NCBI GenBank assembly: GCA_026874595.1 | Contig: CM049317.1 | Location: forward strand, 58,518,118 to 58,582,117 | DNA from: Sipunculus nudus | Lineage: Eukaryota > Annelida > Sipuncula > Golfingiida > Sipunculidae | Length of the DNA stretch: 64,000 nucleotides | Direction of reading: 5' to 3' | Part shown: positions 33,901-36,900 of the stretch, one piece after another | Position numbering within the stretch: position 1 is the stretch's first letter | Layout of the letters: every line of letters begins with the position of its first letter | Notes under the pieces: model-generated | What the model saw: only the letters and a program-made list of their open reading frames with translations | Database searches by the model: none | What the model was told of the DNA's origin: nothing | Program-made: the position numbers and the translations under genes

Positions 33901-36900
33901 AGTCACAGAATTAGTCCTTTATCCAGTTACAAGATGGCGCTACCCTAGTGGCTACGTTCACTACTTAAGTGGCAAATTTTATTCATTAACAATAACCAAA
34001 TACGGCACAATGTGAAAGAGTACCTTCTACTCAATATTAATTTTGAGCGGCACTGGATGTAATCTGGCTTTGCACACATACACGTAATTTTTCAATTTTA
34101 CTGCTTGACGGGCATTGACACTTTCCAGACTCCAGTCATATGCCGGGGGCCAGAAAAAACTGCAAGGCGCGCCCACGGCGCCAACACATCCCTGGTCACT
34201 GTTTTTGCATCTAAGCCGACCGATATTATTTTAAATGGGCCCTGTTTTTCTCCCTGAATCAATTAAAGTATATGCACCAGGCTCGATTGACATCACTACG
34301 TAGCTAAAGATTAATCTTAACTGTCGCCAACTATTTGCAGCTTCTGAAATTAATGATCATGGCCTGGTATAACCATATGTATGCATTCAAAACTGTGTGG
34401 TTTCAATTTTGCTCTCAGAGAGAGACCTTGAATATCGCGAATTTGAAACCACTGCAAATAAGAAGACAACCACAGTATTTCATAATGTCTGGGTTCACCA
34501 GACTGGTGCCTTATAATTTTGCGTGGACCTTTCTGTCTGCAGTGTGTCCATCTGTGTGTCTGTGTTCACACATTAAACAAATATTTTAGGATTAGTTTTA
34601 CTGATCAGGCTGAAATTTTGCATCAGTGTAGTTTTTGGGTACCTTAATATCATACATTAAACTGGTGGCGCCACCTGCAACCATTTTTGCACAGCATCCA
34701 TCTGTTTGTCTGCCTTGGGTTAAATCACTCATATCTCTGCTGTGGTTGGACTTATTCACCTGATATTTTGCATGCATATTGTTATGAAGACAGATTGCTC
34801 AGGGGAAAATTCTTGGCCGATCCAGGATTCGAACCCATAACGGTGGTGCACAATCCGGCATACCAACCGCTTCGCTAGAGAAGCAAGCTTCACTAGCGAG
34901 ACAGTTTGGTCTGCTGTAACATACCCCCTCTTAAGAGCGTTCTGCTATCAGAACAAGACTAATAATCCCTGGAGTCACACTTTGGTGAGCTTATTCCCTG
35001 GGCCTCAAATTTTACATTCATCCCGGATGAGCCCCCATTTTGTTACAAAGACAGATTGCTCAGCGGAAAATTCTGGGTCGATCAGGGATTTGAACCCATA
35101 ATGGTGGTGCACAAGTCAAGCGTACCAACTGCTTCGCTAGAAAATCAAGCTTCACTAGCGAGACAGTTCGGTCCGCTATCATGTCACCCCGTAACAATAT
35201 ACATCCTGGATAGCTCATTTGATTTTGTGACAAATGGCCCCACCTACATTCAATTTCATGCTGCAGACATCCATGCTAATATCTCTGGACTGTTTTAATG
35301 TGTCTACATGAAATTTTGCATGTCTATAGATCTCACATAGCTCTTTATCATGGCACTACCTGCAACCATTTTTGCACAGCGAATATCTGTTTGTCTGCTG
35401 TGGGGTAAATTCTCTCATATCTCGGCAGTGGTCTGACTTATCTTCCTAAAATTTTGCATATGTATCCATTTTGGATAGCTTGCTCAATTTAGAGGATGGT
35501 GGTGCCACCTACATTCACATTTATGCTGAAGACAACCATGCTAATATCTCAGGACTGGTTTGACATTTTTGGCTGAAATTTTGCATGAATATAAATCTTA
35601 CATAGCTCTACAGTCTATACAAATTTAGTTGCCCAACTAACAACTATTTGTGCAAGGTGTCCATCTGTTCATCTACCATGTGTTAAAATCAATTATATTT
35701 GTATCCCCAGACAAAGTCCGGGGATACTATGTTTTCATCACAGTCCCTCCGTCACCACCGCCGCATATATATGTTGTTGGCGCGATAACTCAAAAAATAT
35801 TTCACGGATCTTTACCAAACTTGGTATATGTATAGATATGGGTGAGAGGACAACGCCACTTTGAAAATGAGGTCATGATCTTTACTAGGAGAGTGTCCTT
35901 GACCTTGAATAGGTCCAATTCGGGGGAAAATCACACAAATTCTTATATATCTTATGCTCTTATGCTAAAATGATATTAGGGCAATGTTACAGATGCCCTT
36001 TTTATTGTGTGACACGGGCGTAACTCGTGATGTAGCGCCTGCATCTGGCCGCGTGTTGCACTCTCAGTTTAATCCGTACTGGTTGAACTCTCATTGTCAT
36101 GCTAGCTTGGGGCGTTCTCGCCTGGCTGAGCGGGGCGAGCTCACGTGTGAACCCTTATATGTTGAGACACGGCATTCGTTTTAAGCTCAGCTGGCTGTGA
36201 GTCATCTGAGCTATAGCGATCACTCTTTGTCTTTCGTCCGGCCGTCTGTCCATTAACAGGGAACAAATCGTAACCACTGGACCTATAATCTTCTTACTTA
36301 ACATCCAGAGAGGTTCATGAAAAATCTCCTTGGAAACATGGAATAAGGGCTCTCTTACCCATATTCTCCGAGCTATGGGGCTCTGAAGTACCCCCCAGAA
36401 TAATAAAAAATTTGATACAAAAGCTCAAGTAACTGAACAACTAATGCATTGATCACCATGATTCTTTGCATGGATAGTGATCATGGAGTGTTTCATCAGT
36501 TTCTGCAGACTGGTGGCACTACCTGTATTTTTAGCTCAGCTGACTATAAGTCATCTGAGCTATAGTCGTGGTCCATTGTCCGTCGTCCATCCGTCTGTCC
36601 GTCCGTCCGTCCGTCCGTCCGTCCGTAGATGTGGCACGTTTTGAAACCGTAAGACCTAGGAATCCAAAATTCAGCATAATGTTAGATGTCCCCAAGATCT
36701 CCTACCAAGCCGAAAACTGGGTCTTTGCGACTTCATTCCTTTGAGAAATTAAGGAAAAACCTCAATTTTTTATTAAAATCCTATTTTCACACTTCAGGAC
36801 TGCCTAATATCAAAACCACTCATCTGTTTTTCCTCATATTTACCATAAATATTCTTCCATATAGTTCCTATGTACATGCCAGAAATTAAGTCTGTTAAGT

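Follow-up and report, generated by a model that had tools for sequence, protein, structure and literature searches.

The analysed window, a stretch of 64,000 nucleotides from the genome of Sipunculus nudus (Annelida, class Sipuncula; NCBI), contains a complete TRIM of 417 bp on the minus strand at positions 34780..35196, as rechecked by its coordinates and by matches in its own genome. Its 5' LTR (156 bp, TGTTAC...GTAACA) is located at 35041..35196 and its 3' LTR (142 bp) at 34780..34921, both on the minus strand. The 3' LTR lacks 13 bp near its start, at the site where other copies carry a TATA-like motif. At the corresponding site of the 5' LTR (35176..35183, minus strand) the majority of the family has CATAAAAG and the window copy the decayed form CATGATAG. 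The LTRs enclose an internal domain of 119 bp (34922..35040, minus strand), which is too small for a gene. This domain carries a primer-binding site (PBS) of the tRNA-Pro type, TGGGGGCTCATCCGGGAT, at 35020..35037 (minus strand), with one mismatch (CpG to CA) to the complement of the 3' end of the host tRNA-Pro plus CCA, and a polypurine tract (PPT), AAGAGGGGGTA, at 34922..34932 (minus strand). The target-site duplication ATAT is found on both flanks (34776..34779 and 35197..35200).

The A and B boxes of tRNA genes follow the degenerate consensus sequences TRGYNNANNNG and RGTTCRANTCC, respectively. In the 3' LTR, the A box TAGCGAAGCGG (34867..34877, minus strand) and the B box GGTTCGAATCC (34825..34835, minus strand) are exact consensus matches with 31 nt between them. 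The boxes of the 5' LTR, TAGCGAAGCAG (35129..35139, minus strand) and GGTTCAAATCC (35086..35096, minus strand), also fit the degenerate consensus. In each LTR a T4 run, ATTTTCC, lies 3' of the B box on the minus strand; the one at 35065..35071 in the 5' LTR is a possible weak Pol III terminator and the one at 34804..34810 in the 3' LTR a possible Pol III terminator. The two LTRs, the PBS, the PPT, the ATAT duplication and the exact pair of boxes were therefore all recovered where the original prediction had placed them, and the boxes of the other LTR, said to be kept with small changes, are within the degenerate consensus.

The stretch around the TRIM (34578-35690) consists of degenerate repeat units, called family B in the original prediction, with 60-85% identity to reference copies. 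When the two flanks were joined minus one ATAT and compared with a neighbouring unit of this repeat, a score of 140 was obtained; each flank taken singly scored lower (92 and 50). The TRIM was thus inserted into an older repeat, and its excision together with the loss of one ATAT restores this repeat, as had been claimed. The two LTRs of the window copy are 86.9% identical (137-column alignment). Since its 5' LTR has only a decayed TATA-like motif and its 3' LTR has lost this motif by deletion, the window copy is probably dead.

No tRNA genes were predicted in the window by ARAGORN, no Rfam family was found in it at the gathering threshold, and at E values up to 10 no Rfam tRNA match was obtained at nine loci of the family. 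The search of the LTRs with a tRNA covariance model, which had been suggested as a check, was thus negative, and a functional tRNA as the identity of the LTR segment is supported by neither ARAGORN nor Rfam. A search of the genome for the tRNA family did not single out a source tRNA of the LTR motif.

The searched S. nudus genome comprised 1,426,538,692 bases in 153 contigs. With the whole element as query, 49 matches were retrieved from the best 40 of 2,960 candidates, a ranking that favours full copies. Apart from the window itself, identities were 81-87%, and 45 of the 49 matches span at least 411 of the 417 positions. A 22-mer from the LTR occurs exactly 1,419 times genome-wide and a 22-mer from the internal domain 1,126 times, with none for either reversed control. 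As these words were kept exactly in only 7 of 53 sampled LTRs and 8 of 28 sampled internal domains, the exact counts suggest, as rough figures, about four thousand internal domains and about ten thousand LTRs. The family, hereafter family 1, has more than one thousand copies in the S. nudus genome. The original prediction of a TRIM with tRNA-type boxes in both LTRs, a PBS, a PPT and a short duplication is therefore borne out, and the family is a high-copy one.

The two-LTR layout is kept in genome copies, as had been expected: among 40 copies picked with the internal 22-mer, both LTRs are complete in 21, and in 19 an LTR is partial or missing in the fetched stretch. By inspection, 11 of the 39 loci picked by similarity contain tandem LTR-internal-LTR arrays or are in contact with another unit, and the order LTR-internal-LTR is retained in the arrays. 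A coverage cut-off of 85% was applied to the LTRs; 12 of the 40 loci anchored on the PBS fell below it, as did 27 of the 80 LTRs that the internal-anchored copies could have supplied. The tRNA-like segment alone as query gave 41 matches, none below 92%, from the best 40 of 593 candidates, and no separate SINE source of this segment was present among these best 40.

Several features of the family point to copying of the LTR type. A 4-bp duplication flanks 31 of 55 elements, compared with a mean of 9.2 and a maximum of 17 in shuffled controls, and 5-bp matches were found in 0 of 55. The targets are often AT-rich, which is taken into account by the shuffled controls. The truncated loci L009 and L032 (of 36 rows) were left out of this count, and L013, L028, L038 and L039 are outside its rows because the element reached the edge of the fetched stretch. 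Furthermore, both LTRs of an element carry the same diagnostic variants in 79% of cases, compared with 52% after shuffling (maximum 60.5%; 49 elements), which is expected if they derive from a single template. When all columns are considered, only 22 of 98 LTRs have the partner within the same element as nearest relative. Identity within LTR pairs is 82-96% (median 91%, between-element median 87%), and the window copy falls inside this range. Based on these identities, the sampled copies are probably not recent.

The 18-nt PBS is the complement of the 3' end of the host tRNA-Pro plus CCA, and 19 tRNA-Pro-like genes with the complementary 3' end were identified in the host, the search pattern itself fixing that end. 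The LTR end followed by the 18-nt PBS occurs at 243 sites genome-wide (control 0), other LTR families among them; 28 of 40 such sites that were fetched hold a family 1 LTR at a coverage of at least 85%. The succession of B box, LTR end and PBS gave 129 sites (reversed control 0), and the PBS pattern with a 2-nt spacer 39 sites (control 0), which overlap with the set of 243. In the 40 copies picked with the internal 22-mer (L099-L138), the exact 18-nt form was found in none and a form with at most two mismatches to it in two. The first 12 nt are exact in 16 of these copies and present with at most two mismatches in 18, and neither form was seen in four. By inspection, the 12-nt form commonly has YAACGT in place of CGGGAT after TGGGGGCTCGTC. 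The window copy has the 18-nt form, which could be restored when reverse transcription copies the tRNA into this site.

The A and B boxes occur far beyond chance. A strict A..B pair was found once in the 64-kb window and in none of 60 Markov versions of it. Likewise, an ordered pair is present in 22 of 53 real LTRs picked by their internal domain, as opposed to 1 of 20,000 Markov LTRs, and in 44 of 84 LTRs picked by similarity. Single matches to the A box are common, the window having 36 on one strand and 52 on the other.

The B box combined with a different PBS pattern was found at 19 places (control 0), which by inspection comprise 11 of a second family, four of a third set, three family-1-like places and one other. 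The second family (loci L139-L147 and L153-L172) has an LTR of 145 bp and the PBS TGGCGCCCAACGTGGGGC (TGGCGCCC...), which we take to be of the tRNA-Lys type. A downstream LTR-like copy is present in six of nine fetched loci, in three of them over at least 130 bp at 96-97% identity. A 26-base word from the start of the second-family LTR matched 52 sites within two mismatches (including C6:22669664), 17 of them exactly. Among 20 of these sites that were fetched, three have two LTRs, 16 have one LTR and one has none that passed. A 4-bp match flanks six of the 16 single LTRs, as in solo LTRs, and five of these six are located inside TA repeats. In 19 second-family LTR rows chosen without the boxes, the A box was found in 15, the B box in 14 and the ordered pair in 10. 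LTR identity between family 1 and family 2 is 70% (66% outside the boxes); their boxes differ only at the consensus-free positions R2 of the A box and N8 of the B box, and both families have an A-to-B spacing of 43 nt. The third set (four loci, L148-L151) has a PBS starting with TGGTGTC, presumably of the tRNA-Leu type; its LTRs are diverged and contain boxes resembling A and B, and the search for a second LTR at these four loci gave no confirmation. Its A boxes have no T at position 1 and consequently failed the strict consensus.

The original prediction had expected the boxes to be conserved above background. Inside family 1, conservation is 0.947 for the A box and 0.929 for the B box, compared with 0.912 for the rest of the LTR. 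Pairs of LTR segments at least as conserved as the boxes made up 1371 of 9180 when 81 LTRs were pooled, 2327 of 9180 in the 53 internal-anchored LTRs and 378 of 9180 (0.041) in the 28 PBS-anchored LTRs, and the signal became weaker still once CpG columns were removed. The boxes are thus not significantly above the LTR background in the sets of 81 and 53 LTRs, and this part of the expectation did not hold; the test has little power, since most variation within the family is probably decay after insertion. In the second family, the values are 0.951 (A box) and 0.976 (B box) for a background of 0.961. Between families (five LTRs from three sets), 7 of 11 gap-free columns of the A box are kept, compared with 20 of the 77 columns outside (p = 0.017); significance is lost when three rows (p = 0.19) or two rows (p = 0.09) are used. 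Scoring gapped columns as changed would give p = 0.0007, and the stricter value is used here. The B box carries no weight in this comparison, since it was used in the search. A constraint on the A box between families is therefore modestly favoured by these alignments.

All five compared LTRs have a TATA-like motif at position 13-14, as CATAAAAG in family 1, CATATAAG in family 2 and CACAAAAG or CATAGAAG in the third set; these forms were named after looking, and the LTR start of the third set was set by eye. The distance from the motif to the start of the A box is 44 nt in family 1, 43 in family 2 and 44 in L149, with 15 in L148 and 52 in L150. The starts of the A and B boxes are 43, 43, 44 and 44 nt apart in four LTRs and 31 nt apart in L150. 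If transcription began some 12 nt ahead of the A box, as in tRNA genes, the motif would lie about 25-30 nt upstream of the start, at the site of TFIIIB. The motif would suit Pol II too. Among 49 elements of family 1, a T4 run 3' of the B box was found in the 5' LTR of 43 and in the 3' LTR of 42; after the B box of the second family it was found in 0 of 19 LTRs. AATAAA is absent from the LTR majority of family 1 and from all 28 PBS-anchored LTRs.

Taken together, the element is best explained, with a probability of about 0.72, as a decayed Helenus-type TRIM ('TRIMp3' in Kojima's terms) that was copied in the following way. TFIIIC would bind the A and B boxes of the 5' LTR, the TATA-like motif would place TFIIIB, and RNA polymerase III would initiate some 12 nt ahead of the A box, read across the internal domain and end at the T4 run in the 3' LTR. 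The first T4 run would have to be read through, since it is also present in the 5' LTR, and the terminator part of the model is weak because the second family is devoid of this run. As such a transcript would extend from the 5' LTR to the T4 run in the 3' LTR, both RNA ends would share a stretch R. The host tRNA-Pro would then prime the minus strand at the PBS and the PPT the plus strand, and both LTRs would be remade identical, steps for which the PBS, the PPT and the shared variants provide support. The DNA would be inserted with a duplication of 4 bp, a length that agrees with the flanks, by an integrase that an autonomous element, most probably of the Ty3/Gypsy type, would supply. The element itself encodes no protein, and its proteins would be borrowed. 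We infer transcription of the family by Pol III from the promoter-like sequences of its LTRs.

The same 18-nt PBS was also identified in elements with AATAAA-bearing LTRs (10 of 11 Gypsy-like LTRs examined). A first candidate type has an LTR of 328 bp (L087) that starts with TGTTACGG or TGTAACGG and ends with GGGGTAACA. In L096, downstream of the L091 copy, Pfam matches to RNase H and then to integrase were found in separate pieces, and no match to a reverse-transcriptase domain was obtained among the scanned pieces of at least 120 aa. RNase H before integrase is the order of Ty3/Gypsy elements. The first type is thus a Ty3/Gypsy-like candidate helper, linked to the TRIM via the PBS and the terminal bases only. 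A second candidate type has another gag-like frame, which had no Pfam match.

Some further elements and tRNA genes were observed during these searches. L086, L087, L089, L091, L096 and L097 are Ty3/Gypsy-like with a tRNA-Pro PBS and have two LTR types with the last ~110 bp in common; the L087 copy is apparently in a tandem arrangement, and an open frame with a MYND zinc-finger match (L097:279-1274) lies between two Gypsy-like LTRs. Another LTR family with a tRNA-Pro PBS and a gag-like frame is represented by L081-L083, L088, L092, L094 and L074. AATAAA is present in six of its seven members, two scanned frames had no Pfam match, and its LTR end, GTAACA, is identical to that of the TRIM. Tandem arrays were seen for tRNA genes at C9:40605435-40699894 (spacing about 1.67 kb) and for tRNA-Pro genes at C14:19081274-19119778 (spacing about 3.65 kb).

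Apart from Pol III transcription, the element could be an ordinary TRIM transcribed by Pol II, in the LTR of which a SINE once landed and left its tRNA-like head; the TATA-like motif would then drive Pol II and the boxes would be relics. The location of this motif near the LTR start (position 13-14), a T4 run that would hinder Pol III in the 5' LTR, the lack of a tRNA fold (ARAGORN; Rfam, nine loci) and boxes that are not above the LTR background inside either family are in line with such relics. Against relics speak the changes only at R2 (A box) and N8 (B box) in families that are about 30% apart, although the B box was used to find family 2, the spacing of 43 nt in both families and an A box kept above background across five rows. 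In addition, AATAAA, which is found in 10 of 11 Gypsy-like candidate LTRs, is absent from the family majority and from all 28 PBS-anchored LTRs. We consider this explanation unlikely, but still to be reckoned with.

Far less probable are two other readings. tRNA-derived SINEs have A and B boxes, are short and gene-less and reach high copy numbers; they are copied by target-primed reverse transcription, with variable duplications and no LTRs. A SINE, a SINE dimer or a tandem satellite might have been taken for a TRIM, in view of the boxes and of the tandem units at 11 of 39 similarity-picked loci, but unlike a tRNA-derived SINE the element has LTRs with TG...CA ends, a PPT, a PBS that fits the host tRNA-Pro and fixed duplications of 4 bp. 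This reading was rejected on the basis of these duplications, the LTR-internal-LTR order kept in arrays and the variants common to both LTRs. A chance match of the boxes in an ordinary LTR is similarly improbable. Frequent single A-box matches (36 and 52 on the window strands) would allow it, but the strict ordered pair appeared in 0 of 60 simulated windows, and 44 of 84 LTRs picked by similarity have the ordered pair, as do 10 of 19 second-family LTRs sampled without the boxes. With 22 of 53 real LTRs against 1 of 20,000 Markov LTRs, chance was rejected as well.

Starting from the preferred Helenus-type TRIM with Pol III transcription, a broader proposal can be made, to which we give somewhat less than even odds. 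Annelid Helenus elements might comprise several co-resident lineages with different tRNA primers, in which the LTR acts as a joint promoter, with the TATA-like motif at position 13-14, about 43 nt to the A box and 43-44 nt from A to B. This layout is common to two families and one third-set LTR while much other LTR sequence changes. The PBS would exist in an 18-nt form, which is the complement of the host tRNA-Pro, and in a 12-nt form, as might be seen if copying led the primer tRNA to rewrite part of the site again and again.

Among the known systems, biv-TRIM elements have terminal repeats of 202-218 bp, internal domains of 77-80 bp, no clear PBS and mostly GGGGAGA as PPT, according to the available text of PMC6934838 (Satovic 2019). 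The S. nudus element resembles them as an animal TRIM with tandem alternation of repeats and internal domains, and differs in its LTR of 156 bp, its internal domain of 119 bp and its clear PBS; no mention of Pol III boxes was found in the available text of that article. Cassandra, as described in the accessible part of PMC10886601, is a gene-less TRIM with 5S rRNA sequence in its LTRs. A Pol III-type promoter, putative in the element studied here, inside the LTRs of a gene-less TRIM and the tandem arrays (PMC7215508, as far as available) are shared features. The promoter sequences differ, with 5S rRNA in Cassandra and tRNA-type boxes here, where no Rfam family was found in the window at the gathering threshold. 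The original prediction had proposed an animal analogue of Cassandra with a tRNA-type promoter. This idea is upheld in that the element matches the published Helenus, and it has to be corrected in that the kind was already known in animals (PMC10886601, available text).

Helenus elements are described in the available text of PMC10886601 (Kojima 2024) as TRIMs of 311-1263 bp with tRNA-like LTRs, a PBS and a PPT, which have 4-bp TSDs in animals and occur as multiple families per genome. They use several primers, with tRNA-Pro among those of bivalve families; Gypsy is proposed as the likely helper in animals, one family forms tandem arrays, and many published families likewise fail as functional tRNAs. 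According to the author, Pol III transcription of Helenus lacks experimental validation. This work is also mentioned in a meeting report. With its 417 bp, A and B boxes in both LTRs, PBS, PPT and 4-bp TSD, the window element has this layout, and several families per genome, the tRNA-Pro primer, tandem arrays and a Gypsy-like candidate helper are further likenesses. By its anatomy, the TRIM therefore fits the Helenus type, except that no tRNA fold was recognisable in it (ARAGORN; Rfam, nine loci). It differs in its host, a sipunculan annelid, and in the TATA-like motif and the split between 12- and 18-nt PBS forms observed here. Six animal phyla are given for Helenus in the available text, Annelida not among them; 'annelid', 'sipuncul' and 'TATA' are absent from its main text, and no report of a sipunculan or annelid TRIM of this kind was present among the literature matches listed. 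As far as searched, the host phylum, the TATA-like motif near the LTR start, the 12- versus 18-nt PBS split and a second two-LTR family with another apparent primer site in the same genome would thus be new. For annotators this is a warning that tRNA-like or SINE-like matches in such genomes may be LTRs. The recently described Helenus group would hereby be extended to a further animal phylum by one high-copy family and a second family, which makes the claim that a Pol III transcript is copied by LTR machinery directly testable in a marine worm.
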